From: Cloacibacterium normanense | GTDB taxonomy: Bacteria; Bacteroidota; Bacteroidia; Flavobacteriales; Weeksellaceae | Reading direction: 5' to 3' | NCBI RefSeq assembly: GCF_003860565.1 | Contig: NZ_CP034157.1 | Span: 1,054,001-1,118,000, forward strand | Length of the DNA: 64,000 nucleotides | Shown: positions 27,278-43,122 of the stretch, in pieces | How the letters are laid out: each line of letters opens with the position of its first letter | How positions within the stretch are numbered: position 1 is the stretch's first letter | Notes under the pieces: generated by a model | What the model was told of the DNA's origin: nothing | The model's database searches: none | What the model saw: only the letters and a program-made list of their open reading frames with translations | Translations under genes and position numbers: made by a program

Positions 27278-27634
27278 CTATAAATTTTCAGATGATGTTT
27301 TGATGATTTTAGTCAAAATATTGATAATACTTTCAATCTCTTTTAAATATAATTCAACATCTACTTGAACGAGATTAGAAGATTGATATAACTTTAACCA
27401 ATATTTTGTTTCTCTTGCTTCTTTATTCGCAATAGAAAGTTTTGAAATAAAATCTTTTTTAGATTGAGCAGCAATTGCTTCTTCTACGTTTGCACCAATT
27501 GAAGTACCACAACGAAGAATTTGTTTAGGTAATATAAATTCATTTTGAGACTTACAATCTGAGTAAAATTGTATAATTTTTAGGGCAAAATCAAAAGTCT
27601 TTTTCTGAATTAAATTATCTTCTTTGAAACTCAT
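27278..27634 (-). CDS. four helix bundle protein (23S rRNA intervening-sequence type)
   Basis: 118 residues, all helical. It matches the four helix bundle family first known from intervening sequences in 23S rRNA genes ('FDFALKIIQFYSDCKSQ', 'LRCGTSIGANVEEAIAAQSKKDFISKLSIANKEARETKYWLKLY'). It sits inside the fad operon between thiolase and acyl-CoA dehydrogenase genes and is framed by AT-rich inverted sequences (around 27235-27293 and 27635-27675), so it looks like an inserted cassette. Its biochemical role is unknown. Confidence 0.85.
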   Translation of the reverse strand: MSFKEDNLIQKKTFDFALKIIQFYSDCKSQNEFILPKQILRCGTSIGANVEEAIAAQSKKDFISKLSIANKEARETKYWLKLYQSSNLVQVDVELYLKEIESIINILTKIIKTSSENL

Positions 27635-27668: not shown

Positions 27669-28853
27669 TTAAAGAAGTTCAATTACAGAAGCTGCGCCTT
27701 GTCCTGTACCTACACACATAGAAACCATTCCGTATTTCACACCTCTTAATTTCATTTCGTCAAGAAGTTGAACGGTTAATTTAGTTCCTGTACAACCAAG
27801 TGGATGACCAAGAGCAATTGCTCCACCATTTACATTTAAAATTTCTGGGTTTAAATCCAATTCTTTTTTAATCGCAACTGACTGAGAAGCAAATGCTTCG
27901 TTCAATTCAATTAAACCAATATCTTGAAGAGAAAGCCCAGCTTGTTTTAACGCTTTTGGAATGGCGTAAATTGGTCCAACCCCCATAATTCTTGGCTCTA
28001 AACCAACAGCTGCATAAGAAACTAATCTTGCAATTGGCTCAAGATTTAATTCTTTTACCATTTCTTCTGACATTACTACTACGAAAGCAGCACCATCAGA
28101 CATTTGAGAAGAGTTCCCTGCGGTAACAGAACCTCCAGCTGCGAAAACTGGTCTTAATTTTGCCAAACCTTCGATAGAAGTATCTGTTCTAGGACCTTCG
28201 TCTACTGAGAAATCAAATTTTTTGGTTTGAACTTTTTGATTTTCATCCAAGAAATTATATTCTACAGGAATTGGAACGATTTGTTTTGCAAATTTTCCTT
28301 CAGCAATAGCTTTCAAAGCTTTTTGATGAGATTCAAAAGCAAATTGGTCTTGTTCTTCTCTTGTAATTTTATATTGCTTAGCAACTTCTTCTGCAGTATA
28401 ACCCATTCCCCAATAATAATCTGGGTGAGATTTTGCATAATGACTTTCTGGAACTGGTTTATAACCGCCCATTGGAATGAAAGACATACTTTCTGCACCT
28501 CCTGCAATAATACAATCTGCCATTCCTGCTTGAATTTTAGCAGATGCAATCGCAATCGCTTCAGAACCAGATGCACAATATCTGTTTACGGTAACTCCAG
28601 GAACTTTATCGGTATTTAATCCCATTAACGAAATGAGACGAGCCACGTTTAAGCCTTGTTCTGCTTCTGGCATTGCATTACCAACGATTAAATCATCGAT
28701 TCTATCTTTATCTAACTGTGGCAAATCTGCCATCAATTTTTCTATCACTTTTGCAGCCATTACATCTGGTCTGGTAAATCTTAAACTTCCTTTCGGAGCT
28801 TTACCCACCGCTGTTCTGTAACCTGCTACTATATATGCTGTTTTATTTGACAT
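27669..28853 (-). CDS. acetyl-CoA C-acyltransferase (3-ketoacyl-CoA thiolase)
   Basis: 394 residues. It splits 3-ketoacyl-CoA into acetyl-CoA and a shortened acyl-CoA, the last step of beta-oxidation. Nucleophile Cys93 in NRYCASGSEA, His350 in GHPLG, and the second Cys (~380) in CVGTGQG are present; 'NEAFASQS' is also seen. It lies downstream of the fadN-type fusion on the same strand, and the pair is the usual FadN-FadA arrangement. Confidence 0.93.
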   Translation of the reverse strand: MSNKTAYIVAGYRTAVGKAPKGSLRFTRPDVMAAKVIEKLMADLPQLDKDRIDDLIVGNAMPEAEQGLNVARLISLMGLNTDKVPGVTVNRYCASGSEAIAIASAKIQAGMADCIIAGGAESMSFIPMGGYKPVPESHYAKSHPDYYWGMGYTAEEVAKQYKITREEQDQFAFESHQKALKAIAEGKFAKQIVPIPVEYNFLDENQKVQTKKFDFSVDEGPRTDTSIEGLAKLRPVFAAGGSVTAGNSSQMSDGAAFVVVMSEEMVKELNLEPIARLVSYAAVGLEPRIMGVGPIYAIPKALKQAGLSLQDIGLIELNEAFASQSVAIKKELDLNPEILNVNGGAIALGHPLGCTGTKLTVQLLDEMKLRGVKYGMVSMCVGTGQGAASVIELL

Positions 28854-28984: not shown

Positions 28985-31378
28985 TTAGTTTCTTAGCGGT
29001 TTACCTTTTTGTAACATGAACTGAATTCTCTCTAGTGTTTTTCTTTCACCACATAATTGTAAGAAAGCTTCTCTTTCAAGATTCAATAAATATTGTTCTG
29101 TAACTACAGTTGGCTCAGAAAGATTACCACCTACCATTACATAAGCCAATTTATCTGCTATTTTCTTATCGTGTTCAGAAATGAAATTTCCTGTTACCAT
29201 TTGATCTGTTCCTACAAAGAACATACCTAATGCACCTTGACCCAAAACTTTTACTTTCTGCTGAATTGGTTGAGTATAACCTTGTTCTGCCATTAATTTA
29301 GCTACTTTCTTCGCTTCAGCAATCTGACGGTTTTTGTTTACTACCACGATGTCTTTATGATTTTGAAGAATTCCCATATCATAAGCTTCGTGAGCAGAAG
29401 TTGCAACTTTACCCATTGCGATATTCATGAAAGCTTCACGCATTCTGTTGTTTTTCACATCATCAGCAGCAAATTCTTTAGAAGTTCTCAAAGCGAATTC
29501 TTTAGTACCACCACCTCCAGGAATTACACCAACTCCAGTTTCTACTAAACCAATGTAAGTTTCTGCAACAGCAACTACTTTATCAGCATGCATGGTCATT
29601 TCGCAACCACCACCTAAAGTTAATCCGTGAGGTGCAACCACAACAGGAACAGAAGAGTAGCGAACTCTCATCATCGATTTTTGGAAGTAAGCAATTGCCA
29701 TGTTCAGATCATCCCAATCTTGTTCGATGGCCATCATCAGAATCATCGCTAAATTTGCTCCCACAGAGAAATTAGCACCTTGATTTCCGATTACTAAACC
29801 GTCGTATTCTTTTTCTGCTAAGTCAATCGCTCTGTTTAAACCATCTAGAACTTCACCACCTAGAGAATTCATTTTTGAACGAATTTCAAAGTTGATGATT
29901 CCGTCTCCTAAATCTTGGATTGCAGAACCAGAATTGCTCCACAATGTTTTATTTTTTCTAATATTGTCAAGAATAATGAAAGCTTCTTGACCAGGAATAT
30001 TATTGTAATTTCCGGAATTTTTGTCGAAGAAAATGCTTTGACCTTCTTCATTTACTTTGTAGAAAGATTCTACTGATTTCACCCATTCTGAAACAGTGAA
30101 ACCTGCTTCTGTAGCCAATTCAATACCTTTTTGAATACCTACAGCATCCCAAATTTCGAAAGGACCGTTTTCCCAACCGAAACCAGCTTTCATCGCATCG
30201 TCTACTTTGTAAAGCTCGTCTGAAATTTCAGGAATTTTGTGTGAAACGTAAGCGAACAATGCACCTAAAGATTTTCTGTATAATTTGCCTGCTTTGTCTT
30301 TACCGCCAATTAAAACTTTGAATCTATCAATTGGTTTATCAATATTTTTAGTGAGTTCAAGAGTAGCGAAATTTGCTTTTCCTTGATTTTCGTATTGATA
30401 AGAATCTAAATTAAGACCGTGAATTTCTGATTTTCCATCAGCATTTTTCACTTTTTTATAGAAACCTTGTTCCGTTTTAGAACCTAACCATTTGTTTTCC
30501 ATCATCATATTGATATAATCTGGAAGAACAAAAGTTCCTTTGAATTGTTCATCTTCTACACCAGAAGCGTGAACTCCGTTTGCCACGTGAACCAAAGTAT
30601 CTAAACCTACCACGTCTGCAGTTCTGAAAGTTGCAGATTTCGGTCTACCAATAACTGGACCTGTTAATTTATCTACTTCAGTTACATTAAGACCTATAGA
30701 TTTTACATTGTGAAGTAAATTCATCATCGAGAAAACTCCAATTCTGTTCGCGATGAAGGCAGGAGTATCTTTTGCTAAAACAGTAGTTTTTCCTAAGAAT
30801 TTAGCGCCATATTCCATGTAGAATTTCACGATTTCAGCATCGGTATCATTGGTAGGAATAATTTCTAAAAGCGGTAAATATCTTACCGGGTTAAAGAAGT
30901 GCGTTCCTGCAAAATATTTTTTGAAATCATCACTTCTTCCTTCTACCAACATATTAATAGGGATACCAGAAGTATTAGAAGACACCAAAGTTCCAGGTTT
31001 ACGGAATTGTTCGATTTTTTCGTAAACAGACTTTTTAATGTCTAATCTTTCTACTACCACCTCGATAATCCAATCTGTATTTTTGATTTTTTGCAAATCG
31101 TCATCAAAATTTCCTACAGAGATTCTTTCTGCAAACTCTTTTTTATAAAGTAGAGCAGGGCTGGCTTTTACTAATTTAGCCAAACTTTCTGTAGCAATTC
31201 TGTTTCGTACTGCTTTGTCTTCTTTGGTAAGACCTTTTTTCTGTTCAGCTTCTGTTAATTCAAACGGAACAATATCAAGAAGGAGAACTTCTACGCCAAT
31301 GTTTGCAAAGTGCGCAGCAATTCCGCTTCCCATAATTCCTGAACCAAGAACTGTAACGTGTTTAATTCGTCTTTTCAT
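28985..31378 (-). CDS. 3-hydroxyacyl-CoA dehydrogenase/enoyl-CoA hydratase fusion (FadN type)
   Basis: 797 residues. The N-terminal NAD-binding domain begins with VLGSGIMGSGIAAHF (~10-24), followed by the HCDH helical domains ('GTHFFNPVRYLPLLEI', 'KDTPAFIANRIGVF'). The C-terminal ~300 residues are a crotonase fold ('GANFSVGANLAMI', 'LTLGGGCEMTMHADKVVAVAETYIGLVETGVGVIPGGGG'). The order dehydrogenase-then-hydratase is that of B. subtilis FadN and the reverse of E. coli FadB. It carries out steps two and three of beta-oxidation. It starts 14 nt after marR. Confidence 0.92.
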   Translation of the reverse strand: MKRRIKHVTVLGSGIMGSGIAAHFANIGVEVLLLDIVPFELTEAEQKKGLTKEDKAVRNRIATESLAKLVKASPALLYKKEFAERISVGNFDDDLQKIKNTDWIIEVVVERLDIKKSVYEKIEQFRKPGTLVSSNTSGIPINMLVEGRSDDFKKYFAGTHFFNPVRYLPLLEIIPTNDTDAEIVKFYMEYGAKFLGKTTVLAKDTPAFIANRIGVFSMMNLLHNVKSIGLNVTEVDKLTGPVIGRPKSATFRTADVVGLDTLVHVANGVHASGVEDEQFKGTFVLPDYINMMMENKWLGSKTEQGFYKKVKNADGKSEIHGLNLDSYQYENQGKANFATLELTKNIDKPIDRFKVLIGGKDKAGKLYRKSLGALFAYVSHKIPEISDELYKVDDAMKAGFGWENGPFEIWDAVGIQKGIELATEAGFTVSEWVKSVESFYKVNEEGQSIFFDKNSGNYNNIPGQEAFIILDNIRKNKTLWSNSGSAIQDLGDGIINFEIRSKMNSLGGEVLDGLNRAIDLAEKEYDGLVIGNQGANFSVGANLAMILMMAIEQDWDDLNMAIAYFQKSMMRVRYSSVPVVVAPHGLTLGGGCEMTMHADKVVAVAETYIGLVETGVGVIPGGGGTKEFALRTSKEFAADDVKNNRMREAFMNIAMGKVATSAHEAYDMGILQNHKDIVVVNKNRQIAEAKKVAKLMAEQGYTQPIQQKVKVLGQGALGMFFVGTDQMVTGNFISEHDKKIADKLAYVMVGGNLSEPTVVTEQYLLNLEREAFLQLCGERKTLERIQFMLQKGKPLRN

Positions 31379-31857: not shown

Positions 31858-31904
31858 TATGCGTGCATAGCAAATATAAAAAAAATACTATGCGTGCATA
31901 GTAT
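31858..31904. promoter_or_regulatory. tandem MarR operators upstream of the fad operon
   Basis: Distal site ATACTATGCGTGCATAGTAT (31885-31904), perfect 9-bp arms around GT. Proximal site TATGC-GT-GCATA (31858-31869), 5-bp arms. The distal site begins about 10 nt downstream of the -7 element, over the expected transcription start. Confidence 0.75.
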
Positions 31905-31913
31905 TTTTTATAA

Positions 31914-31943
31914 CAAACAGATAACTTATTGATTATGTGACAA
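31914..31943 (-). promoter_or_regulatory. promoter of the marR-fad operon
   Basis: On the minus strand TTG (31941-31943), a 19-nt spacer and TCTGTTTG (31914-31921), one base off TAnnTTTG. The main palindrome follows at once. Confidence 0.45.
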
Positions 31944-32009
31944 TTAATTATTATGCAAAGAATAATAGAGCTAAATAGAAAATGAGAAATTTCAAACGAA
32001 AAACGCTGA

Positions 32010-32933
32010 TTATAAGCAATTTCTAATTGATAACAGTATTTCGTCAATAGATTGACAAGAAAACCTATTATTTTGGTAAAATATCTCCCAAAATGCACCC
32101 TGAAATTCTATTATAAAACCAGAAAGGTCTCTTTTAAAGTTTTTTTGCAAAGCAGAGTATAACATTTCTTTTTCTAAAAAAGGAGCTATAATTTCAGGTG
32201 AAACAAACTCTTCATTGATGGTAAAAAGTCGAGGATTGGTCAATAAATTATTCTTCAAAAGAATGTCTTCCGCCAAACCTTCTTGGAGATTTTGGTCATT
32301 AATAAACCAAATTTTATCTGCAAATTCTTTAGCCAATCGCCAATCGTGAGAAGAAAAGAGGATGATTTTATTATGGTTTTTAGCCAAATCTCTCAGCAAT
32401 TTTAAAATGATAATTTTATTTTCTTCGTCTAAATGAGTTGTAGGTTCATCTAAAATAATCATAGGAGAATTCTGTGCTAAAGCTCTCCCAATAAAGGCTT
32501 TTTGAAGATTTCCGTCTGATAATTTTTGAAGCAAAGTAGTTCTATATTCTTCTAATTTTAGTTGAGAAATAATATTGTTTACATCTTCCAAATGTTCTTT
32601 TTCAAGCTTGTAATAATAAGGAAGATGAATAAACTTACCAAGTGAAATTAAATCTTCGGTGGTGTAATTGGCAGGAATTTGAGATTTTGCAAAAACTACA
32701 GCAATTTGTTCGGCAATTTCTTTATCAGAAAGTTTTTTTACATTTTTGTTATTAATGAAAATATCTCCTTTTAAAGTTGGAATTTGATTGAGAATAGATT
32801 TAATTAAAGTAGTTTTTCCAACGCCGTTATTACCAATCAACAAGCAAACATCACCGAAATCCAATGAAGCATTAAACTCTGAAATGAGAGGTTTTTGGTA
32901 ACCGATTGTTGTATTTTTTATGTGTAAAAACAT
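32010..32933 (-). CDS. ABC transporter ATP-binding protein (iron-siderophore/FecE type)
   Basis: 307 residues: an ABC ATPase core (~1-215) plus a ~90-residue C-terminal extension. Walker A GNNGVGKTT (~33-41), Walker B MIILDEPTTHLD, switch His in SSHD. The signature is LSDGN rather than LSGGQ, a known variant in this group. It starts 35 nt after the FecCD-type permease gene. Together they form the inner-membrane part of a siderophore, haem or cobalamin importer; no substrate-binding protein or TonB receptor is adjacent. Confidence 0.87.
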   Translation of the reverse strand: MFLHIKNTTIGYQKPLISEFNASLDFGDVCLLIGNNGVGKTTLIKSILNQIPTLKGDIFINNKNVKKLSDKEIAEQIAVVFAKSQIPANYTTEDLISLGKFIHLPYYYKLEKEHLEDVNNIISQLKLEEYRTTLLQKLSDGNLQKAFIGRALAQNSPMIILDEPTTHLDEENKIIILKLLRDLAKNHNKIILFSSHDWRLAKEFADKIWFINDQNLQEGLAEDILLKNNLLTNPRLFTINEEFVSPEIIAPFLEKEMLYSALQKNFKRDLSGFIIEFQGAFWEIFYQNNRFSCQSIDEILLSIRNCL

Positions 32934-32968
32934 TTTTTTAACGCAAAATATTGCTAATTACTTATTAT

Positions 32969-33943
32969 TCATTGCTTATTTTTAAGTATCATCATCAAAA
33001 TTACTGGCACTCCAAATAAACTCGTAATCACATTAATTGGAAATTGAGAAAGTTCTGAAATTACAGAAAAAAATTCCATTATTAAAACGCCTAAAATCAT
33101 ATTCAAAATCCACTGTTGCCACAATTTCGCAGGCGAATAAATCATTCTGCTAAAATGAGGAACTACGATTCCTATAAACAAAATTGGCCCTAAAAACGCC
33201 GTAACAGAAGCAGAAAGTAGGGAAGAAGCAATGATGACAAAATATTTCAGTTGCTCTAAATTTACACCTAAACTTTTAGCATATTGATTTCCTAAACTAT
33301 TTCCGATGAGCGGTTTTATGCTTTTGAAACTTAAAAACAATCCCATTAATACTACAATGCATAGCACCCAAAGTTGATTTCTGGTCACTTGATTATTCGC
33401 ACCAAAACTCCATAAAATATAGTTTTTCAGACTTTGATTTTCTGCATATAATTGTAAGATAGAAACCACTGCTCCAGCTAAAGCAGAAACCAAGAAACCA
33501 AAAATAATCAGATATGATTTATCTTGAAATTTTCTAGAAAAAATCAATAAAATACTCATCAGCAAAAGGCTTCCAAGAATTGCAGAAATACTGATGAAAC
33601 CATTTTGCAAAAATTCTGGTAAAGTAAAATCTTGAGAAAAAAAGATATAAAAAGCTACGCTTAAACTCGCAACTGAAGTAATTCCAAGAACCGATGGTCC
33701 AGCTAATGGATTTTGAAAATATTCTTGTAAAAGAAAACCAGAAGTAGGAATAGAAACGCCTGCTAGAAACATCGCTAAAACACGATTCATTCTGAGTTCT
33801 GCAATTTGTGAATTCTGAGCATTCCCATCAATAAAATCTGCTAAACCCAGTTTTATAAACCCTATATTTAAATTGATGAGAATCGTAATCACCACCAATG
33901 AAAATAGGAAAATAAGAATGGTTTTGAAGGTTTTATTGTTCAC
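32969..33943 (-). CDS. FecCD family ABC transporter permease
   Basis: 324 residues with about nine to ten hydrophobic segments and the BtuC/FecCD signatures: 'LRMNRVLAMFLAGVSIPTSGFLLQEYFQNPLAGPSVLGITS', 'LGVNLEQLKY', 'GPILFIGIVVPHFSRM' and 'FSVISELSQFPINVITSLFGVPVILMMIL'. A homodimer of such subunits pairs with the adjacent ATPase. The substrate (iron-siderophore, haem or B12) cannot be told from sequence. Confidence 0.9.
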   Translation of the reverse strand: MNNKTFKTILIFLFSLVVITILINLNIGFIKLGLADFIDGNAQNSQIAELRMNRVLAMFLAGVSIPTSGFLLQEYFQNPLAGPSVLGITSVASLSVAFYIFFSQDFTLPEFLQNGFISISAILGSLLLMSILLIFSRKFQDKSYLIIFGFLVSALAGAVVSILQLYAENQSLKNYILWSFGANNQVTRNQLWVLCIVVLMGLFLSFKSIKPLIGNSLGNQYAKSLGVNLEQLKYFVIIASSLLSASVTAFLGPILFIGIVVPHFSRMIYSPAKLWQQWILNMILGVLIMEFFSVISELSQFPINVITSLFGVPVILMMILKNKQ

Positions 33944-33999
33944 AGATTTTATTTAAAAACTTCACAAATTTAATTTAAAAAAATCTATGAAAAAGAAAA

Positions 34000-34073
34000 C
34001 TCTCGCTGATTTTGCAAATTTTGCAGATTTTTTTGAGTCTATTCATCTGCTTAATCAGCCCCATCTGCGAGAG
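34000..34073. repeat. imperfect inverted repeat (CTCTCGC...GCGAGAG)
   Basis: Outer arms CTCTCGC (34000-34006) and GCGAGAG (34067-34073), with further matching GAT, TGATT and GCAGAT blocks inside. The inner motif (GCAGATT) resembles the CRCAGATTTCRCAG repeat family seen elsewhere in the window. On the minus strand it lies between the tlpA-like and permease genes and may fold into a long hairpin. Confidence 0.55.
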
Positions 34074-34080
34074 AAATATT

Positions 34081-34635
34081 TTATTTAAAAGAATTCAGTT
34101 TTGCATCTAAATCTTCTTTACTCATCATTCCTACTGTTTCTATTTCTTTATCACCTTTTTTAATCACGGTAAAAGGAATAGAACCACCGTCCCAAGTCTT
34201 GGTAATAGTCGTGAAATAATCTGGTGCAATCATAGAAGCATCAAAAAGAACTACATTTTTTCTGATATTATATTCATCTGCAAAATCACTTACTGCAGTA
34301 TTCCAATCTTCTTTAGCATCTACACTTACAAAAGTAAATTTTACTGGTTGCCCTTTTAATTCTTCCATTTTTTCTTTGAAATGCGGAATCTCTTTCATAC
34401 AAGGTCCACACCAAGTTGCAAAGAAATTGGTTACATAAATGGTGTCATTTTTTTGTGGTGCAACCATTGCTTTTAATTGCTCTTGATTCACTTCAGGCAA
34501 CGCACTTGCAGGATTTACAGCTGAACTATCTACTGTTTCAGTGGTTGTTTCTTCTGTTAATTGGTCTGGAGTTTCACTCTTTTTACAAGAAAATAGTGCG
34601 GTTAATATAAGTGTGGAAAAGATTAATTTTTTCAT
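34081..34635 (-). CDS. TlpA family thioredoxin-like lipoprotein
   Basis: 184 residues. Lipoprotein signal MKKLIFSTLILTALFSC with lipobox Cys17. After a Thr/Glu-rich linker comes a thioredoxin fold with the active site FFATWCGPCMKEIPHF (CxxC) and 'GGSIPFTVI' (cis-Pro region). Periplasmic thiol-disulfide reductase of the TlpA/ResA kind, with roles in cytochrome c maturation or disulfide reduction; the partner is not visible here. Confidence 0.88.
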   Translation of the reverse strand: MKKLIFSTLILTALFSCKKSETPDQLTEETTTETVDSSAVNPASALPEVNQEQLKAMVAPQKNDTIYVTNFFATWCGPCMKEIPHFKEKMEELKGQPVKFTFVSVDAKEDWNTAVSDFADEYNIRKNVVLFDASMIAPDYFTTITKTWDGGSIPFTVIKKGDKEIETVGMMSKEDLDAKLNSFK

Positions 34636-34686
34636 AAATATTAATTGTTTATTTTTGTTATGGAATTGATTATTGAGTCGATTTTA

Positions 34687-34694
34687 CAAATATA
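34687..34694 (-). promoter_or_regulatory. -7 box (TATATTTG) for the tlpA-like gene
   Basis: An exact TAnnTTTG on the minus strand, 51 nt upstream of the ATG at 34635; the -33 element is not clear. Confidence 0.35.
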
Positions 34695-34718
34695 ATAAAA
34701 TCAAAATGCTTCTTTTGA

Positions 34719-34726
34719 TATATTTG
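34719..34726 (+). promoter_or_regulatory. -7 box (TATATTTG) for the SanA-like gene
   Basis: An exact TAnnTTTG 27 nt upstream of the TTG start at 34753, back-to-back with the minus-strand box at 34687-34694. Confidence 0.35.
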
Positions 34727-34752
34727 TTACAAACGAATTTAGAATTATTTTA

Positions 34753-35388
34753 TTGAGAATCCTTTTAGACATATTTAAAAAATTTTTCTTGTTGATAGAA
34801 CTAGGATTTTTGCTGATGATATTGGCAAACTTCTGGGTATTTTCTCTCACCGAAGGAAGAACGTATACTAAAATTTCTAAAATTCCGCCAAGAGAAGTAG
34901 CTTTGGTTTTAGGAACTTCTCCAAAAACGATGGCAGGAAATGCCAATCCATATTTCATTTCTAGAATGGATGCTACTGCGCTGCTTTATCATCATGGAAA
35001 AATCAAAAAAATCATTGTAAGTGGCGAAAAAAGTAAAGGCTATAACGAACCAAAAGCCATGAAAAATTTCTTGATTTATCAAGGTGGCGTTCCCGAAAAC
35101 ATTATTCTAGAAGACCCAAAAGGTTTTAATACCCGCGAAAGCATTCTAAGATGCAAAAATGAATACCAACAAAAAAACGTAATCATTGTTTCACAAGGAT
35201 TTCATAACCTTAGAGCTTTATTTTTTGCAAGAAACATTGGTATGAACGCATTAGGATTTGATGCCCAAGATGTTACTAAATACCAGAGTTATTACAGAAA
35301 TCATCTTAGAGAATTTCTCGCAAGAGTACAAGCGGTAGTGTATTATATTTTCGGGATTTCAAATGAAGAAGAACATCTGAAAAAATAG
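34753..35388 (+). CDS. SanA/YdcF-like DUF218 membrane protein
   Basis: 211 residues from a TTG at 34753. One N-terminal membrane helix (~8-28), then a DUF218 domain: 'REVALVLGTSPKTMAGNANPYFISRMDATALLYHHGKIKKIIVSGEK', 'NEPKAMKNFLIYQGGVPENIILEDPKGFNTRESI', 'VIIVSQGFHNLRALFFARNIGMNALGFDAQDV'. This matches the SanA (vancomycin high-temperature exclusion) branch, implicated in envelope barrier function; the enzymatic activity is not established. Confidence 0.85.
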   Translation: MRILLDIFKKFFLLIELGFLLMILANFWVFSLTEGRTYTKISKIPPREVALVLGTSPKTMAGNANPYFISRMDATALLYHHGKIKKIIVSGEKSKGYNEPKAMKNFLIYQGGVPENIILEDPKGFNTRESILRCKNEYQQKNVIIVSQGFHNLRALFFARNIGMNALGFDAQDVTKYQSYYRNHLREFLARVQAVVYYIFGISNEEEHLKK

Positions 35389-35441
35389 GGTTTCAGACCA
35401 AAAAAGAACGCATCAATCAACCAATTATTTAGGAATTTAGC

Positions 35442-35449
35442 TAAATTTG
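35442..35449 (+). promoter_or_regulatory. -7 box (TAAATTTG) for udk
   Basis: An exact TAnnTTTG 18 nt upstream of the udk ATG; no convincing -33 element. Confidence 0.35.
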
Positions 35450-35466
35450 TAAAAAATATATTTTTA

Positions 35467-36084
35467 ATGTTAGTAATAGGTATTGCAGGTGGAACTGGTT
35501 CTGGTAAAACCACCGTAGTGAATAATATTTTGCAACAATTGAATGCAGAAGGCGTAAATGTACTTTCTCAAGACAATTATTACCATGATAATCACCAATT
35601 ATCGCTCTCAGAAAGAGAAGCGCTGAATTATGACCACCCAAAATCGATAGATTTTGAATTATTGGTAAAACATGTAAAAGCGCTGAAAAGAGGAGAAAAC
35701 ATAGAACAGCCTTTGTATTCCTTCGTTACGCATTCTAGAACTGGAGATCACGTAACTGTAGAACCTAAAAACGTTTTAATTGTAGAAGGAATTCTGGTTT
35801 TGACCAATCAGGAACTTTTAAAGGAATTCGATCTTAAAGTATTTGTGCATGCAGATTCAGACGAAAGATTAATCAGAAGAATTAGACGTGATACACAAGA
35901 ACGCGGTAGAGATTTACACGAAGTTCTTCACCGTTATCAAACTACGCTGAAACCAATGCACCAAGAGTTTATAGAGCCTTCTAAAAACGAAGCAGACCTT
36001 ATTGTTCCTAACATGAGAAAAAATTCTGTAGCTATTGATTTTCTTTCTACAGTCATTAACAATTCTCTTAAAAAAGCCTATTAA
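35467..36084 (+). CDS. udk: uridine kinase
   Basis: 205 residues; phosphorylates uridine and cytidine in pyrimidine salvage. P-loop GIAGGTGSGKTT (~5-16), 'LSQDNYYHD', 'DHPKSIDFELL', 'VLIVEGILVL' and 'RRIRRDTQERGR' are all present. It overlaps the next gene by one base (TAATG), so the two are translationally coupled. Confidence 0.95.
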   Translation: MLVIGIAGGTGSGKTTVVNNILQQLNAEGVNVLSQDNYYHDNHQLSLSEREALNYDHPKSIDFELLVKHVKALKRGENIEQPLYSFVTHSRTGDHVTVEPKNVLIVEGILVLTNQELLKEFDLKVFVHADSDERLIRRIRRDTQERGRDLHEVLHRYQTTLKPMHQEFIEPSKNEADLIVPNMRKNSVAIDFLSTVINNSLKKAY

Positions 36085-36443
36085 TGAAGGAACTAATTAA
36101 AGATATTCAGAAAAAATCTCCGAGTTGGCGTTTCGTGCAGAAATACCTTCTCAATAAATATTTTATTACCATTTTTCTTTTTTTGGTATGGATGATTTTT
36201 TTTGATTCCACATCTTGGTTAGTCATCAAAGATTTAAACAAAGAAATAGACAAATACGAAGAACAACTCTCGTATTACAAGTCAGAATATCATAAAAATG
36301 ATGCTTTCTACAAAAAGCTCATGAATAACAAAGCAGAAAAAGAAAAGTTTGCGCGAGAAAATTATTTTATGAAAAAGAAAAATGAAGAAATTTTCATTCT
36401 CGTGGTAGACAGTTCTGCCATTAAGCAAAAAGAAGAAGAATAA
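36084..36443 (+). CDS. septum formation initiator family protein (DivIC/FtsB-like)
   Basis: 119 residues: a basic cytoplasmic N-terminus, one membrane helix (~27-45, 'YFITIFLFLVWMIFFDSTSWL'), then a periplasmic coiled coil ('DLNKEIDKYEEQLSYYKSEYHKNDAFYKKL') and the short 'KEKFARENYFMKKKNEEIFIL' motif of the DivIC/FtsB family. It bridges divisome components (FtsL/FtsQ partners). Translationally coupled to udk. Confidence 0.87.
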   Translation: MKELIKDIQKKSPSWRFVQKYLLNKYFITIFLFLVWMIFFDSTSWLVIKDLNKEIDKYEEQLSYYKSEYHKNDAFYKKLMNNKAEKEKFARENYFMKKKNEEIFILVVDSSAIKQKEEE

Positions 36444-36506
36444 ATAAATTATCTTGAATTTCGAATGTCGAAAAACATTTGAACACAAAACAAAAAACCA
36501 TACATT

Positions 36507-37664
36507 ATGTTTGATCAAGTTACACTTCAGGATTGGGAAAATCTGGTCAAAAAACAATTGAAAACAGAAGATATTTATGCTGTTCTTACCAAAGAAAACT
36601 TGGAAGGTATTTCTGTAAAACCTTATTATGCCGACACTGATTTTGTCTTAAAAAACCTGCCAAAAGTAGAAGAATCTACGCATTTGATTGCTAAATATCA
36701 AGATAATTTAGAAGAACATGCTTATGCGTTTTTACTAGAGCATAATGTAGAACATTTGACCGAAAAAACGCTTTTCGTTGCCAATAAAGATTTGGCAGGA
36801 CACATTTCTCTTGCAGATGATAATCAATATATTTCTTTGATAGATGTTTTTGAAAATCAAGAAATCAACACAAAATTAGCGGAGGAATTATTGTCTAAAA
36901 ATTTTAAAAGAAATATTGCCGTAGATACCACTTTATACCAAAATGCTGGAGCTTCTATAACGCAACAATTGGCTTTAGCATTAGCAAAAGCAAAAGATTT
37001 GGCAGAAGTTTTCGGAGCTGAAATTTTAGAAAAATTGGTTTTCAAATTTGCAGTAGGCGGAAATTATTTCTTTGAAATTGCAAAAATCAGAGCATTTAAA
37101 ATCCTTTTCAATCAACTTTCTAAAGAATTCGGACTAGACAGCATTCCTTACATTTTCACAGAAACTTCTCTTAGAAATAAAGCTAAAAACGACGAAGAAA
37201 ATAACCTGATTCGTTCTACGCTAGAACTTTCCGCAGCCATGATTGCTGGTTCTGATGCGGTTTATAGCAATGATTTTAAGGTACAAAACTCTAATTCACT
37301 TTCAGAAGAAATTTCGTTTAAACAACAAATTGTTTTAGCATACGAAAGCATTATTAATGTTTTTGACGATGCTGCCAACGGAAGTTATTATATTGAAGAA
37401 ATCACCCATCAATTCGCAGAAAACGCATGGAAATTATTCTTAGAAATCGAAAATTCTGGTGGTTTTGTAGAAAATTTAAAATCTGGAAAAATTGCTGAAA
37501 TGATCTATCAACAGGCAATTGCAGAACAAAATTGGGTAGAAGAAGGTAAAATAAAACTCATTGGTGTAAATCTTTATCCAAAACTAGAAAAAACTAAATC
37601 TGTAGAACAACTTTATAATGCTCAGGAAATAAAACCAGTAAGATGGGCTGAAATGTTTGAGTAA
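36507..37664 (+). CDS. methylmalonyl-CoA mutase small (beta) subunit
   Basis: 385 residues resembling the small subunit of methylmalonyl-CoA mutase: 'DWENLVKKQLK', a TIM-barrel-like half with 'VDTTLYQNAGASITQQLALALAKAKDLAEV', 'FKFAVGGNYFFEIAKIRAFKILFNQL', 'NLIRSTLELSAAMIAGSDAVYSNDF' and 'GSYYIEEITHQFAENAWKLFLEIE'. The C-terminal B12-binding domain is lacking or degenerate, as usual for the non-catalytic subunit. The catalytic large subunit normally follows but is not in this window. The stop codon lies 2 nt before the left repeat of the GxxExxY unit. Confidence 0.85.
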   Translation: MFDQVTLQDWENLVKKQLKTEDIYAVLTKENLEGISVKPYYADTDFVLKNLPKVEESTHLIAKYQDNLEEHAYAFLLEHNVEHLTEKTLFVANKDLAGHISLADDNQYISLIDVFENQEINTKLAEELLSKNFKRNIAVDTTLYQNAGASITQQLALALAKAKDLAEVFGAEILEKLVFKFAVGGNYFFEIAKIRAFKILFNQLSKEFGLDSIPYIFTETSLRNKAKNDEENNLIRSTLELSAAMIAGSDAVYSNDFKVQNSNSLSEEISFKQQIVLAYESIINVFDDAANGSYYIEEITHQFAENAWKLFLEIENSGGFVENLKSGKIAEMIYQQAIAEQNWVEEGKIKLIGVNLYPKLEKTKSVEQLYNAQEIKPVRWAEMFE

Positions 37665-37665
37665 A

Positions 37666-37686
37666 ATTTCCCACAGATTTCACAGA
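37666..37686 (+). repeat. left terminal inverted repeat of the GxxExxY unit
   Basis: 21 bp, beginning ATTTCCCACAGATTTCACAG, repeated perfectly in inverse orientation at 38076-38096. It starts just past the mutase stop codon. Confidence 0.85.
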
Positions 37687-37689
37687 ATT

Positions 37690-38073
37690 ATGAACGAAAA
37701 TGAAATTAGTTTTTATATAAGAAAATCTATTTTTGAAATTTACAATGAACTTGGACCAGGTTTATTGGAAAAAGTTTATGAAAAAACTTTAGCATATGAT
37801 TTAAAAAGTAAAGGTTTAGAAGTAAAAACACAAGTTCCAATTCCTATAAAATTTAAAGAATTAACTCTAGATTCAAGTTTTATTGCTGACATAATTGTTG
37901 AAGATAAGGTAATTATTGAAATAAAATCTATTGAAGAAATCTCAAATGTTCATCATAAACAACTCTTAACTTATCTAAAACTAACAAATTTAAAATTAGG
38001 AATTCTAGTCAATTTTAATACAGATTATATTGATAAGAATATTTACAGAAAAATAAACGGATATATTAAATAA
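37690..38073 (+). CDS. GxxExxY family protein
   Basis: 127 residues from the ATG at 37690; an upstream TTG at 37657 would lie within the mutase gene and read through the repeat. The name-giving motif GLLEKVY is at ~24-30. A PD-(D/E)xK nuclease-like pattern follows: Asp67 in 'FIADIIVED' and Glu77-x-Lys79 in 'VIIEIKS'. Metal-dependent nuclease activity is therefore plausible but unproven. It is framed by perfect 21-bp inverted repeats and interrupts a conserved gene string, so it appears to be an inserted cassette. Confidence 0.85.
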   Translation: MNENEISFYIRKSIFEIYNELGPGLLEKVYEKTLAYDLKSKGLEVKTQVPIPIKFKELTLDSSFIADIIVEDKVIIEIKSIEEISNVHHKQLLTYLKLTNLKLGILVNFNTDYIDKNIYRKINGYIK

Positions 38074-38075
38074 AA

Positions 38076-38096
38076 TCTGTGAAATCTGTGGGAAAT
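38076..38096 (-). repeat. right terminal inverted repeat of the GxxExxY unit
   Basis: Exact reverse complement of 37666-37686. It contains both possible GTG starts (38079 and 38088) of the following methyltransferase gene. Confidence 0.85.
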
Positions 38097-39227
38097 AAAA
38101 TACAATACTTTATTGATGCAAATCTACACGCGGATTTGCATTCTTTGTTATTGAAAAAATCTCCATTTCCAGAGGTTTCTATGCAAGAATTGGTTCAGCA
38201 GATTAAAGGTAGAAAAGTAGCTGAAAAAAAGTTCCCTTTTTTGAATCAAGAAAACATTATTTTTCCGCCCAATCTTAATCTAGAACAGGCTTCATCACAA
38301 GACACCGCAGACTTCAAAAAACAGTTTTTTAAAGGAAAAAAATTCATTGATTTAACTTGTGGTTTCGGAATTGATGCCTATTTTCTCTCCCAAAATTTTG
38401 AAGAAATTACTTTAATAGAGCAGAATACAGAGCTTTTAGATATTGTAAAACACAATTGGGAAGTTCTGGACAGAAAGGCGAATTTCATCAACCAAAAATT
38501 AGAAGATTTTCTCAAAAATAATAAAGAACATTTTGATTTAATTTATCTAGATCCTGCAAGAAGAGATAATCATAACAGAAAAGTATTTCTTTTGGAGGAT
38601 TTGTCGCCTAATATTATTGAAATTCAAGAGCAATTAAGTGACATTTCACCTGAAATTTTAATAAAACTTTCACCGCTGATTGATATTCAGCATTTGGTTT
38701 ATTCGCTCAAAAATATTTATAAAATATGGATTATTGCTGTTAAAAATGAAGTAAAAGAAGTTTTGGTTTATCTCAAGAAAACAGAAAATCAACCAGAAAT
38801 TTCTTGCATCAATTTACAATCTTCGGAACCTGAATTTCACTTTAATTTAGATGATAAAAAACATTGTCAATCAGAATTTTCAGCTCCTAAAAAATACATT
38901 TACATTCCGAATAATTCGGTTTTGAAATCTGGAGCATTCAATTTAGTTTCAGAGAAATTTGGTTTGAGAAAATTACATCAGAACACGCACATTTATACTT
39001 CCGAAGAAAAAATAGAACATTTCCCAGGAAGAATTTTTGAAACCGAAGAAATCAATTCAAAAGCGATTAAAAAGGGTGAACAATTTAATATCATCACCAA
39101 AAATTTTCCCTTAAAACCTGAAGAAATCAAGAAAAAACACAAAATAAAAGACGGCGGAAACCATTATCTTATCGCGGTGAAATCTCTTTCTGGAAATCAT
39201 TTCCTAGTAGGAAAACTTCTTGATTAA
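38079..39227 (+). CDS. class I SAM-dependent methyltransferase, THUMP-like domain
   Basis: 382 residues from a GTG at 38079 (a GTG at 38088 is equally possible); both lie inside the repeat at the end of the GxxExxY unit. N-terminal 'SPFPEVSMQELVQQIKGRKVAEKKFPFL', SAM motif 'FIDLTCGFGIDAYFLSQNF' (~88-106), then 'LIYLDPARRDNHNRKVFLLEDLSPN', a DPARR variant of the catalytic motif, and a C-terminal THUMP-like domain ending 'GGNHYLIAVKSLSGNHFLVGKLL'. An RNA methyltransferase role is likely by family; the target is unknown. The native start may have been replaced by the insertion. Confidence 0.82.
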   Translation: MKSVGNKIQYFIDANLHADLHSLLLKKSPFPEVSMQELVQQIKGRKVAEKKFPFLNQENIIFPPNLNLEQASSQDTADFKKQFFKGKKFIDLTCGFGIDAYFLSQNFEEITLIEQNTELLDIVKHNWEVLDRKANFINQKLEDFLKNNKEHFDLIYLDPARRDNHNRKVFLLEDLSPNIIEIQEQLSDISPEILIKLSPLIDIQHLVYSLKNIYKIWIIAVKNEVKEVLVYLKKTENQPEISCINLQSSEPEFHFNLDDKKHCQSEFSAPKKYIYIPNNSVLKSGAFNLVSEKFGLRKLHQNTHIYTSEEKIEHFPGRIFETEEINSKAIKKGEQFNIITKNFPLKPEEIKKKHKIKDGGNHYLIAVKSLSGNHFLVGKLLD

Positions 39228-39245
39228 GAAAATTTTAAGTTTTTT

Positions 39246-39275
39246 TTGTGGTAAACTCAATATTTCTTACTTTTG
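39246..39275 (+). promoter_or_regulatory. flavobacterial consensus promoter for the small lipoprotein
   Basis: TTG (39246-39248), a 19-nt spacer and TACTTTTG (39268-39275), an exact match to the consensus, 29 nt upstream of the ATG at 39305. Confidence 0.6.
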
Positions 39276-39304
39276 GAAAAATTTATAAACGTAATAATTT
39301 AGAT

Positions 39305-39523
39305 ATGAAAAAATTGGTATTTGCTGTAGCTGCAGCGTCTTTTTTAGTTTCTTGTGGTTTACCTGAAGGAGGAAACAAGGGAGTTTTGAAAAAAACTGAA
39401 GATGTAGTAAGATATGACGATGAAAATGCTGAAGCGCCTACTTACAAAGAAAAAACGGACTCTGCTACTGTAAAACAACCAGCTGCTGCAGAAGTTAAAG
39501 TAGATAGCACTGCAAAAAAATAA
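39305..39523 (+). CDS. small lipoprotein of unknown function
   Basis: 72 residues from the ATG at 39305; the frame is open to 39248, but that start would lie in the promoter. MKKLVFAVAAASFLVSC is a lipoprotein signal with lipobox Cys17. The mature part is short, acidic and Lys/Ala-rich without predicted fold, and begins GLPEGG. Exported and probably membrane-anchored. Followed by its own terminator. Confidence 0.7.
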   Translation: MKKLVFAVAAASFLVSCGLPEGGNKGVLKKTEDVVRYDDENAEAPTYKEKTDSATVKQPAAAEVKVDSTAKK

Positions 39524-39544
39524 GATATTTTCTCATACAAAATA

Positions 39545-39573
39545 CATGTCTTGCGATTGCGAGACATTTTTTA
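39545..39573 (+). terminator. intrinsic terminator after the lipoprotein gene
   Basis: Stem TGTCTTGC/GCGAGACA (39547-39554 with 39559-39566, one G-U pair), GATT loop, then TTTTTT. Confidence 0.75.
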
Positions 39574-39595
39574 TATTTACTAAAATTTTAAAACA

Positions 39596-40978
39596 ATGTC
39601 GGACACACAAAGTTATATCCAACAAAACAAGCAACGTTTTCTAGACGAATTGATAGAATTATTGAAGATTGCTTCTATTTCTGCAGACCCAGCTTACAAT
39701 CAAGATGTGCTCAATTGTGCTGATGCTGTGGCAAAACACCTTGCCAATGCAGGAGCAGATCAAGTAGAAATCTGCGAAACCAAAGGTTATCCTGTAGTTT
39801 ATGGTGAAAAAATCATCAATCCAGAATTACCAACCGTTTTGGTTTACGGTCACTATGATGTTCAACCTGCAGATCCATTAGAATTGTGGGAAAGCGGACC
39901 ATTTGAACCCGTGGTTAAAAAGACAGAACTTCATCCAGAAGGTGCGATTTTTGCAAGAGGAAGTGCGGATGATAAAGGCCAATTCTTTATGCACGTAAAA
40001 GCTTTTGAAGCCATGATGAAAACCAATTCTTTACCTTGTAATATTAAATTCATTATTGAAGGAGAAGAAGAAGTAGGTTCTGTAAGTTTAGCTGGATTTT
40101 TAGAAGAAAATAAAGAAAAACTTTCTTGTGATGTCATTTTAATTTCAGACACGCATATTTATTCTAACGAACAACCAACTGTGACTACTGGTCTTAGAGG
40201 TTTAAGTTATATGGAAGTAGAAGTAGAAGGTCCGAACAGAGATTTACACTCAGGATTATATGGTGGCGCTGTTCCTAATCCAATTAATGTTTTAGCAGAA
40301 ATGATTGCTAAACTTCATGATGAAGAAGGAAGAATTACCATCGATGGTTTTTATGATAATGTAGAAATCGTTTCTGCGGAAGACAGAGCAGAAATGAATA
40401 AATTAAAAGACAACCCAGAAGAATTCAAAAAATCAATTGGATTAAGTGGAGTAGAAGGCGAAACAGGTTATACTACCTTAGAAAGAACTTCTATCAGACC
40501 AACTCTTGATGTAAACGGAATTTGGGGAGGTTATACAGGTGAAGGCGCTAAAACCGTCATTCCGAGCAAAGCATTTGCTAAAATTTCTATGAGATTGGTT
40601 CCTTATCAAACAGACGAAGAAATTACTGAAAAATTCACGAAATATTTTGAAAAAATAGCTCCAGCTTCTGTGAAGGTAAAAGTTACACCTCATCACGGTG
40701 GAATGCCTTATGTTTTACAAAGCAACACTAAAGAATTCCAAGCGGCTAAAAAAGCGATGGAAAAAGCCTTTGGTAAAGAAGTACTACCATATAGAAGTGG
40801 CGGAAGTATTCCTATTACTTCTCTTTTTGAGAAAATTTTGGGAGCAAAATCAGTTTTAATGGGCTTCGGTTTAGATTCTGATGCGATTCACTCGCCAAAC
40901 GAACACTACGGATTGTATAATTTCTACAAAGGAATAGAAAGTATTCCATATTTCTTTGAATTTTATACTCAACAATAA
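39596..40978 (+). CDS. M20 family dipeptidase
   Basis: 460 residues, a zinc-dependent cytosolic dipeptidase of the CNDP/PepV-like M20 branch. Zinc and catalytic residues lie in LVYGHYDVQPADP (His86, Asp88), GSADDKGQ (~121-128) and GEEEVGS (~156-162), with a late zinc-binding His in 'DSDAIHSPNEHYG'. The lid/dimerisation domain ('DLHSGLYGGAVPNPINVLAEMI') is intact. Monocistronic, with terminators on both sides. Confidence 0.92.
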   Translation: MSDTQSYIQQNKQRFLDELIELLKIASISADPAYNQDVLNCADAVAKHLANAGADQVEICETKGYPVVYGEKIINPELPTVLVYGHYDVQPADPLELWESGPFEPVVKKTELHPEGAIFARGSADDKGQFFMHVKAFEAMMKTNSLPCNIKFIIEGEEEVGSVSLAGFLEENKEKLSCDVILISDTHIYSNEQPTVTTGLRGLSYMEVEVEGPNRDLHSGLYGGAVPNPINVLAEMIAKLHDEEGRITIDGFYDNVEIVSAEDRAEMNKLKDNPEEFKKSIGLSGVEGETGYTTLERTSIRPTLDVNGIWGGYTGEGAKTVIPSKAFAKISMRLVPYQTDEEITEKFTKYFEKIAPASVKVKVTPHHGGMPYVLQSNTKEFQAAKKAMEKAFGKEVLPYRSGGSIPITSLFEKILGAKSVLMGFGLDSDAIHSPNEHYGLYNFYKGIESIPYFFEFYTQQ

Positions 40979-40988
40979 ATTTTAAGTT

Positions 40989-41019
40989 AATCCTCAGTCG
41001 AAAAGATTGAGGATTTTTT
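40989..41019 (+). terminator. intrinsic terminator after the dipeptidase
   Basis: AATCCTCA/TGAGGATT stem (40989-40996 with 41008-41015) followed by TTTTT. The rest of the 365-bp spacer to etfB holds the etf promoter and operator. Confidence 0.75.
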
Positions 41020-41137
41020 ATTTCTGGTTAAAATTTGAGAATTAACTCCACATTTTTGGGAAATAAAAAACCATTAATTTGTGGTAATTTTTAATGATTT
41101 CAAAAATTATTTCCGAAATAAAATCTCAAAATTTCCT

Positions 41138-41164
41138 TTGTTTCAGGCAATTATCGTATATTTA
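41138..41164 (+). promoter_or_regulatory. promoter of etfBA
   Basis: TTG (41138-41140), a 16-nt spacer and TATATTTA (41157-41164), near-consensus. The palindrome at 41191 lies about 27 nt downstream, a position suited to repression. Confidence 0.4.
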
Positions 41165-41190
41165 TGCAATGAATATAAATAATTTTAGAG

Positions 41191-41208
41191 TATTATGCAT
41201 GCATAATA
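41191..41208. promoter_or_regulatory. MarR-type operator upstream of etfBA
   Basis: TATTATGCATGCATAATA, a perfect 18-bp palindrome. It shares TANTATGCRTGCATANTA with the operator of the marR-fad operon at 31885-31904. It lies 136 nt before the etfB ATG. Confidence 0.7.
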
Positions 41209-41343
41209 TTTTTTTATTTAAATTAGCAAACATTCAAATAAGAAAAATTGAACCTTATGAAATCGCCGTGATTAGCAAACAACAATACTAATGATAAATG
41301 AGCGATTGCATATGACCTTTAAAAAAACAATAAAAATCTACAT

Positions 41344-42089
41344 ATGAAAATATTAGTTTGTATTAGTAGTGTTCCAGATACTACTTCTAAAATTAACTTT
41401 ACTGCAGATAAATCTGCTTTTGACAAAAACGGAATTCAGTGGGTAATTAATCCTTACGACGAATTTGCTCTTACAAAAGCTGTAAAATTACAAGAATCTC
41501 AAGGCGCTACTGTAACCATCGCTACTGTAGGTGACGCAGCTACTGAAGCTGTAATGAGAAAAGCTCTTGCTATTGGTGCAAATGACGCAATAAGAGTAAA
41601 CGCTGAACCACAAGACAGTATTACCGTAGCTAAAGAATTGGCTAAAATTGCAGAAGAAGGTGGTTATGACTTGGTACTTTGCGGTAAAGAATCTATTGAT
41701 TATAATGGTGCTGCTGTTCCAGCAATGATTGCTCAATTACTTAATAGATCTTTCGTAAACGCTTGCGTAGGTTTAGAAGTAAACGGTGCAGAAGCTACTG
41801 CTGTAAGAGAAATTGAAGGGGAAAAGAAACATTAACTGTAAAAATTCCTGCTGTAATCGCTGGTCAAAAAGGTATGGTAGAAGAAAAAGATCTTATCATT
41901 CCTAACATGAGAGGAATTATGTCTGCTAGAACTAAACCTTTAACCGTAAAAGAACCAACTGAAACAGATGTTAAAGTAAGTGCAGTATCTTTTGATGCTG
42001 TTCCAGCTAGAGCTCAAGTAAAACTAGTTTCTGCGGATAATCTAGACGAATTGGTAAGATTACTTCACGAAGAAGCAAAAGTTATTTAA
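41344..42089 (+). pseudogene. etfB: electron transfer flavoprotein beta subunit, with one frameshift
   Basis: Two frames make one protein: 41344-41835 (163 residues, 'MKILVCISSVPDTTSKI', 'WVINPYDEFAL', 'LVLCGKESIDYNGAAVPAMIAQLL') and the rest to 42089 ('LTVKIPAVIAGQKGMVEEKDLIIPNMRGIMSARTKPL'). Adding one base to GGGG at 41818-41821 restores VREIEGGKETLTVK and a total of 248 residues, the normal EtfB length. EtfB with EtfA takes electrons from acyl-CoA dehydrogenases. Because etfA and the fad genes are intact, a missed base in the G run is the likelier explanation than true inactivation. Confidence 0.85.
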
Positions 42090-42174: not shown

Positions 42175-43122
42175 ATGTCAATTTTTGTATATACCGAAAA
42201 TATTTCAGGAGCATATAAAAAAGCGGCTCTAGAAGCTGTTTCTTACGCAAAAACAGTTGCAGATATGTCTGGAACTGATGTAGTAGCGGTAAGCATTAAT
42301 CCTACAGATGCTGCAGATGTTCTTTACAAATACGGAGCTTCTAAAGTGGTTACTCTAAAAAGTGACGCACTTAAAAGTTTCAACCCAAAAGCTTATGCAG
42401 AAGCTCTCGCTACTGTAGTAGATGGAGTAGTAGTTTTCCCGCATTCTACAGATGCTAGTTCTGTAGCTCCTATGCTTGCTGTGATTAAAAACGCTTCATT
42501 ATTAACCAATGTAGTTTCTGCTCCTGTTGCTGTTTCTCCATTCGAAGCGAAGAGAAAGTCTTTCTCTGGTAAAGCTTTTATGGATGCTAAAGCTCATGGC
42601 GAAAATGTAGTGGTTACTGTTTCTCAAAATTCTTTCGGAGTAAAAGAAAATCCAGTAGCTGGTTCTGAAGAAGTAAAAGAAGTTTCTGTTTCTGCAGAAG
42701 GTCTTACAGTAGTTAATCAAGAAAAATCTTCAGGAAAATTAGACCTTAAAGAAGCAGAAGTGGTAGTTTCTGCAGGTAGAGGAATGAAAGGCCCTGAAAA
42801 CTGGGGAATGATCGAAGAATTAGCTAATGTTTTAGGTGCCGCTACCGCTTGTTCTAAACCAGTTTCTGATATCGGTTGGAGATCTCACTCAGAACACGTA
42901 GGACAAACCGGTAAAGCCATCGCTCCTAATTTATACATAGCAGTAGGTATTTCTGGTGCTATTCAGCATTTGGCTGGTGTAAACTCTTCTAAAACTATCG
43001 TAGTGATTAATAATGATGCAGAAGCACCATTCTTTAAATCTGCTGATTATGGAGTAGTAGGAGATGCTTTCCAAATTATTCCTGCGCTTACAGAAAAAAT
43101 TAAAGCATTAAAAGGACACTAA
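42175..43122 (+). CDS. etfA: electron transfer flavoprotein alpha subunit
   Basis: 315 residues. The N-terminal domain resembles EtfB. The C-terminal FAD domain shows SAGRGMKGPENW, 'KPVSDIGWRSHSEHVGQTGKAIAPNLYIAVGISGAIQHLAG' and 'INNDAEAPFFKSADYGVVGD', the standard EtfA FAD-binding signature. With EtfB it forms the soluble carrier between acyl-CoA dehydrogenases and the quinone pool. Second gene of etfBA; followed by a strong terminator. Confidence 0.95.
   Translation: MSIFVYTENISGAYKKAALEAVSYAKTVADMSGTDVVAVSINPTDAADVLYKYGASKVVTLKSDALKSFNPKAYAEALATVVDGVVVFPHSTDASSVAPMLAVIKNASLLTNVVSAPVAVSPFEAKRKSFSGKAFMDAKAHGENVVVTVSQNSFGVKENPVAGSEEVKEVSVSAEGLTVVNQEKSSGKLDLKEAEVVVSAGRGMKGPENWGMIEELANVLGAATACSKPVSDIGWRSHSEHVGQTGKAIAPNLYIAVGISGAIQHLAGVNSSKTIVVINNDAEAPFFKSADYGVVGDAFQIIPALTEKIKALKGH

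Follow-up and report, generated by a model that had tools for sequence, protein, structure and literature searches.

Bacteria of other phyla have known regulators of fatty-acid breakdown: FadR (GntR family) and PsrA-type proteins (TetR family) repress beta-oxidation genes and are released by acyl-coenzyme A (acyl-CoA). For Bacteroidetes, our searches of the openly licensed literature, which were partly aimed elsewhere, found no regulator of this process. Among MarR-family proteins, homodimers that bind DNA and respond to a ligand, CouR of Rhodococcus jostii, the repressor of p-hydroxycinnamate catabolism, is described as acting on catabolic operons from operators that overlap the upstream box of the promoter (PMC4737184), and as being released from DNA by the CoA thioester of its pathway (PMC4737184; review PMC5487221). 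The same review presents FabT of Streptococcus pneumoniae as a regulator of fatty-acid synthesis whose repression is strengthened by acyl-acyl carrier protein, and describes a palindromic site in the own promoter as frequent among regulators of this family (PMC5487221). Here, we analysed a stretch of 64,000 nucleotides from Cloacibacterium normanense (contig NZ_CP034157.1, positions 1,054,001 to 1,118,000; hereafter, the window). It carries a marR-fadN-thiolase-(small open reading frame [ORF])-acyl-CoA dehydrogenase cluster on the minus strand and, 9 kb off on the plus strand, etfBA, which encodes an electron transfer flavoprotein. We conclude that the palindrome TATGCNNGCATA, found upstream of both, is very probably the operator of an autoregulated MarR-family repressor of beta-oxidation that is widespread in the class and narrowed to two promoters here. 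Our literature searches gave no description of this operator or regulator, and the sole paper they returned with the 12-mer concerns a nematode.

The original prediction held that a single palindrome joins marR-fad and etfBA into a regulon. The copies it located at 31885-31904 (ATACTATGCGTGCATAGTAT), 31858-31869 (a shorter core) and 41191-41208 (TATTATGCATGCATAATA) are present to the letter; the first is a 20-bp palindrome, perfect except for the two central bases, and the last a perfect 18-bp palindrome that encloses the etfBA operator core. Both of the former lie in the marR promoter, but 31885-31904, which was thought to overlap the start of the operon, stands upstream of the -7 box, and it is the shorter copy that overlaps the predicted start. 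The etfBA copy was also correctly named as the only other site. The 2.76 Mb genome holds the core TATGCRTGCATA just three times, twice in the marR-fadN promoter and once before etfBA, whereas 0.14 to 0.64 places would be expected from Markov models (order 0 to 3, built from the window) and the reversed TATGCRTGCATA control has no match in the whole 2.76 Mb. One mismatch adds two places (reversed-pattern control: 0 forward, 2 reverse), both inside ORFs, one of 486 amino acids (L004) and one of at least 822 (L005). Could these be chance palindromes of AT-rich promoters? The excess within the window is modest, since a scan with up to three mismatches gave 6 strand-hits where shuffles average 1.56, a count matched by 3 of 100 shuffles, and TATGCNNGCATA with one mismatch gave 4 hits, matched by 5 of 100. 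From the window alone the excess is moderately surprising; the whole-genome count is decisive and, with the comparative counts and their reversed-pattern control, contradicts chance, which we consider extremely improbable.

The palindrome is conserved upstream of marR far outside this genome. Counting sites within 300 bp upstream of the gene, TATGCNNGCATA was found at 80/80 named Weeksellaceae loci (the best 80 of 191 relatives by MarR match, all Weeksellaceae-like by title) and at 18 of 19 hand-picked loci of other Flavobacteriales. Among 16 divergent family loci, picked mainly for a divergent MarR or a missing R-centred motif, 14 have it exactly and all 16 with one mismatch allowed. Beyond the order, 40 loci were chosen from 133 genomes with a profile match (144 of 295 overall), and 31 carry the site, or 38 with one mismatch allowed; a fadN homologue follows marR on the same strand at 37 of these 40. 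The reversed TATGCNNGCATA has no exact match in any of the four sets and a single one-mismatch match, in the class set.

The sites also occupy a consistent position relative to the promoter. The -7 consensus of the Bacteroidetes primary sigma factor is given as TTTG/TAnnTTTG in a study of Flavobacterium johnsoniae (PMC6847099), after which the transcription starts were placed. The 8-mer TATATTTG is by itself common, with 99 occurrences in the window, equal to shuffles. Across the family marR promoters, TAnnTTTG starts 14 to 18 bp past the palindrome centre in 80/80 cases, compared with its presence in 2.4% of random 45-mers; in the etfB promoters, searched only with the looser TAnnTTnG, the box starts 18 to 20 bp past the centre in 27 of 30. 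A search of the region for E. coli-type promoters gave 46 hits, about as many as shuffled sequence would give (45.9 expected). The operators overlap the -33 region and, in Cloacibacterium, also the predicted start, positions that favour repression, and the palindrome stands in MarR's own promoter as is often so in the family, a match at the level of sequence only. We infer that MarR represses from these operators. The family does include activators (PMC5487221), and MarR might bind these sites as one of them, but the overlap with the -33 region and the start makes this quite improbable. A different possibility is that the marR palindrome terminates the co-directional ABC-transporter ATPase gene upstream and that the etfB copy is a similar hairpin. 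The RNA of the marR copy would fold with -11.2 kcal/mol ahead of a U run and that of the etfB copy with -7.2, as any palindrome would, and the upstream ORF is co-directional in 77/77 loci examined, 3 of the 80 being too short. However, the core letters are conserved beyond what pairing alone would ask, at a fixed distance to the -7 box, and the site adjoins unrelated genes in other lineages; it is also absent among 10 terminator-like hits, from a scan that requires three G-C pairs and would miss it. We regard a terminator as highly unlikely, though the marR copy may have a double role as operator and terminator.

The site was also counted before etfB, the second branch of the proposed regulon. 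All 82 genomes compared there have a MarR orthologue, and TATGCNNGCATA lies upstream of etfB in 30/30 best-matching family loci, 16/22 order genomes and 8/30 class genomes (11/30 allowing one mismatch), with no reversed TATGCNNGCATA in any of the three sets. The etf link is thus almost always present in the close family, frequent in the order and thinly spread farther out. The enrichment in relatives on which the original prediction had staked itself was thus seen for marR-fad at family, order and class level, and for etfB at the first two, the class being thinner.

Presence of the site largely follows presence of the regulator. MarR (E below 1e-20) was found in 184 of 197 family genomes, and TATGCRTGCATA in 175 of these 184 against 4 of the 13 without MarR, counts that are not independent because the genomes are related. 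Eight of the nine MarR genomes lacking TATGCRTGCATA were re-examined, and all have a palindrome at marR with another centre or one mismatch; the ninth, G002, is discussed below. Three of the four MarR-less genomes with TATGCRTGCATA have it elsewhere than at etfB: G016 has a match away from that gene, and G065 and G076 have no site there. The G016 match is one perfect palindrome (L241, position 1463) adjoining a gene of unknown role. Twelve of the 13 MarR-less genomes have etfB, and in 11 of these the site is missing, the best match having 3 or 4 mismatches; among 13 MarR-bearing family genomes in the same comparison, 7 have it exactly and 1 with one mismatch. Of the g20 genomes, a group called Chryseobacterium by likeness to named loci, 19 have MarR and fully listed places: all 19 carry two marR sites 83 bp apart and an etfB site about 70-150 bp before the gene, and 3 have one further site. 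With one genome per genus, entered by hand from genera with both sites, the site at marR and that at etfB share the central dinucleotide (or its complement) in 14 of 19 genera, where shuffling gives 6.5 on average (p about 0.0002). From this agreement, the co-occurrence and the site in its own promoter, we infer that MarR binds both sites; the single-palindrome regulon is supported by site conservation and MarR co-occurrence.

What the computation establishes is where the sites lie, how they sit in the promoters, how well they are conserved and that they co-occur with MarR; from this a mechanism can be proposed. A MarR dimer would sit on the palindrome just upstream of the -7 box, and in Cloacibacterium also just downstream, excluding RNA polymerase from its own operon and from etfBA. 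It would let go during fatty-acid degradation, most likely on binding acyl-CoA; this signal, drawn by analogy with the CoA thioester that releases CouR, is the least certain element, and we lean towards it. With one repressor on both promoters, production of the beta-oxidation enzymes would be coordinated with that of the flavoprotein that accepts electrons from the acyl-CoA dehydrogenase.

Many marR promoters have double operators. Two palindromes were found in 61 of the 80 named loci and one in 19, with spacings of 83 bp in 50 loci, 84 in 5, 78 in 2, 31 in 3 and 33 in 1. Since most of these spacings are close to whole helical turns, the two sites may cooperate or form a loop, although 78 bp does not fit this. 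An alignment of the 50 promoters shows a conserved extra half-site, TATTATGC, after the distal site; in L060 and other Chryseobacterium loci, where the distal palindrome stands about 140 bp ahead of marR, it is followed by this half-site and TCATA, and the stretch between the two marR sites is AT-rich and conserved. To account for the second upstream palindrome in Chryseobacterium, we considered a divergent promoter and rejected it, the upstream ORF running in the same direction as marR at all loci examined.

The predicted regulon extends far beyond this genome. We listed TATGCNNGCATA in 12 genomes of other Flavobacteriales families, which have 4 to 11 places each (reversed control 0 to 10), and examined 35 sites other than marR/etfB from 10 of the 12. 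These 35 are a choice and not all, since 21 sites among the matches listed were left out (centres CC/GG, CT/AG, CG, CA/TG, TC/GA, one GC and one AA). Fatty-acid enzyme genes adjoin 16/35, a label that for several sites rests on similarity to a scanned representative: they encode FabH-like synthases, nitronate-monooxygenase/FabK-like proteins, 4HBT thioesterases, old yellow enzyme/dienoyl-CoA-reductase-like proteins and FadE. Another 8/35 adjoin genes for outer-membrane receptors with carboxypeptidase-regulatory-like domains; all six receptors scanned have this domain and five of them Plug, and the remaining two are similar to one of those scanned. One palindrome lies between divergent thioesterase and nitronate-monooxygenase-like genes (L216, 1519-1530; L231, 1542-1553). 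On balance, we slightly favour the view that control of fatty-acid degradation in the class goes back to a single ancestral master regulator, represented by one MarR orthologue group, with a near-constant operator, a regulon that changed in size, and lineage-specific double operators (about 83 or 31 bp apart), for which looping or cooperative binding is a possible mode of action. The regulon would be broad in Flavobacteriaceae and some relatives, taking in outer-membrane receptors, FabH-like synthases, thioesterases and dienoyl-CoA-reductase-like enzymes, and down to marR-fad and etfBA in Weeksellaceae.

Several observations weigh against an operator read by this MarR throughout. In several order-level genomes, the loose TATGCNNGCATA is no commoner than its reversed control, and 11 of the 35 further sites fall within ORFs, lie at a distance from any start, or adjoin other or unclear genes, including a GDSL-like lipoprotein and an outer-membrane barrel. 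The exact etfB site is missing in 6/22 order and 22/30 class genomes, all bearing MarR, and in 6 of the 13 MarR-bearing family genomes, most of which were picked for absence of the motif. The centres disagree in 5 of 19 genera, Cloacibacterium included, and the agreement depends on the genomes chosen, falling to 13/19 (p about 0.001) with the other g54 genome. A structure model of MarR, built with 18 close sequences, was too poor for use (mean predicted local distance difference test score 55.9). Two genomes would even suit palindromes read by another, unlinked regulator, with MarR controlling something else: G072 carries the etfB site, yet its 370-contig assembly yielded no full MarR, and G002, of the same family but fetched with the order loci, has a MarR of 66% identity and no site at marR or etfB, nor a fadN in the stretch fetched around marR. 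Nevertheless, the site tracks the marR promoter throughout the class and is missing before etfB in nearly all MarR-less family genomes, so that an unlinked regulator is unlikely.

The features of the window are collected in Table 1. The predicted operon has the proposed gene order, with an additional small ORF ahead of the acyl-CoA dehydrogenase gene. The MarR protein has an identical counterpart in C. normanense IMET F, and its winged-helix domain exceeds the curated family cut-off; a second, weaker match lies elsewhere in the genome (G000:C1:1623673-1624059, profile E 8.9e-16). Directly upstream of marR, in the same direction, is the ABC-transporter ATPase gene (ABC_tran, 32010-32933), and an ORF with a similar N terminus is upstream of marR in 77/77 loci examined (L036-L115). 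The etfB gene is 1 base shorter than in three compared relatives, and its frame breaks at about 41820 (within 41780-41880), which falls near residue 160 in a protein of about 250 amino acids; the missing base is probably a sequencing slip, otherwise a recent mutation. As predicted, the acyl-CoA synthetase pair at 0.9-4 kb has no site, but the partner gene belongs to the acyl-CoA dehydrogenase family and is not a short-chain dehydrogenase. The thiolase at 45 kb likewise had no palindrome in the window scans.

Table 1. Features of the predicted regulon, in window coordinates (aa, amino acids).
Feature	Position	Strand	Remarks
Operator core TATGCGTGCATA	31889..31900		within 31885-31904; about -34 to -23 from predicted marR start
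Second operator core	31858..31869		31 bp from first; about -3 to +9 from predicted marR start
-7 promoter box TATATTTG	31871..31878	-	between the two marR operators; consensus TTTG/TAnnTTTG, PMC6847099
Operator core TATGCATGCATA, upstream of etfBA	41194..41205		about -37 to -26 from predicted start
-7-like box TAAATTAG, etfBA promoter	41219..41226	+	sequence; spacing in relatives
marR, MarR-family winged-helix regulator, 150 aa	31392..31844	-	Pfam PF01047 43.9 bits, cut-off 24.6
fadN/FadB-like 3-hydroxyacyl-CoA dehydrogenase + enoyl-CoA hydratase	28985..31378	-	
Acetyl-CoA C-acyltransferase (thiolase)	27669..28853	-	TIGR01930 448 bits, cut-off 240.55
Small ORF, 118 aa, between thiolase and acyl-CoA dehydrogenase	27278..27634	-	
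Acyl-CoA dehydrogenase, FadE-like	25443..27218	-	NCBIfam NF058590 690.9 bits, cut-off 600
etfB, frame broken by single missing base in assembly	41344..41835	+	
etfA, electron transfer flavoprotein alpha subunit	42175..43122	+	matches under curated equivalog cut-offs

With the operator sequence spelled out, the proposed regulator named and its predicted targets listed, the control of fatty-acid degradation in Bacteroidia becomes directly testable. FadR and PsrA-type regulators have the same proposed task, but their protein families and operators differ from a MarR-type protein with TATGCNNGCATA. In Flavobacterium psychrophilum, beta-oxidation genes are reported to rise when the bacterium meets fish mucus or plasma (PMC9723704); the proposed MarR switch may explain this induction. 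FabT shares with the window MarR both the family and the connection to fatty-acid metabolism, but it governs synthesis whereas degradation is proposed here, and the FabT model NCBIfam NF050133 gives the window MarR 28.3 bits, where the cut-off is 200. CouR, of the same family, is among the sequence matches of the window MarR through structure 5cyv (E 8.8e-4), identified as CouR in the review cited above (PMC5487221). The similarity is weak and the CouR pathway is aromatic, in contrast to the fatty-acid pathway here. In CouR, two arginines contact the phosphates of CoA. What we propose from the sequence for marR-fad and etfBA, a palindrome-bound MarR dimer covering the upstream element of the promoter, is the CouR arrangement.

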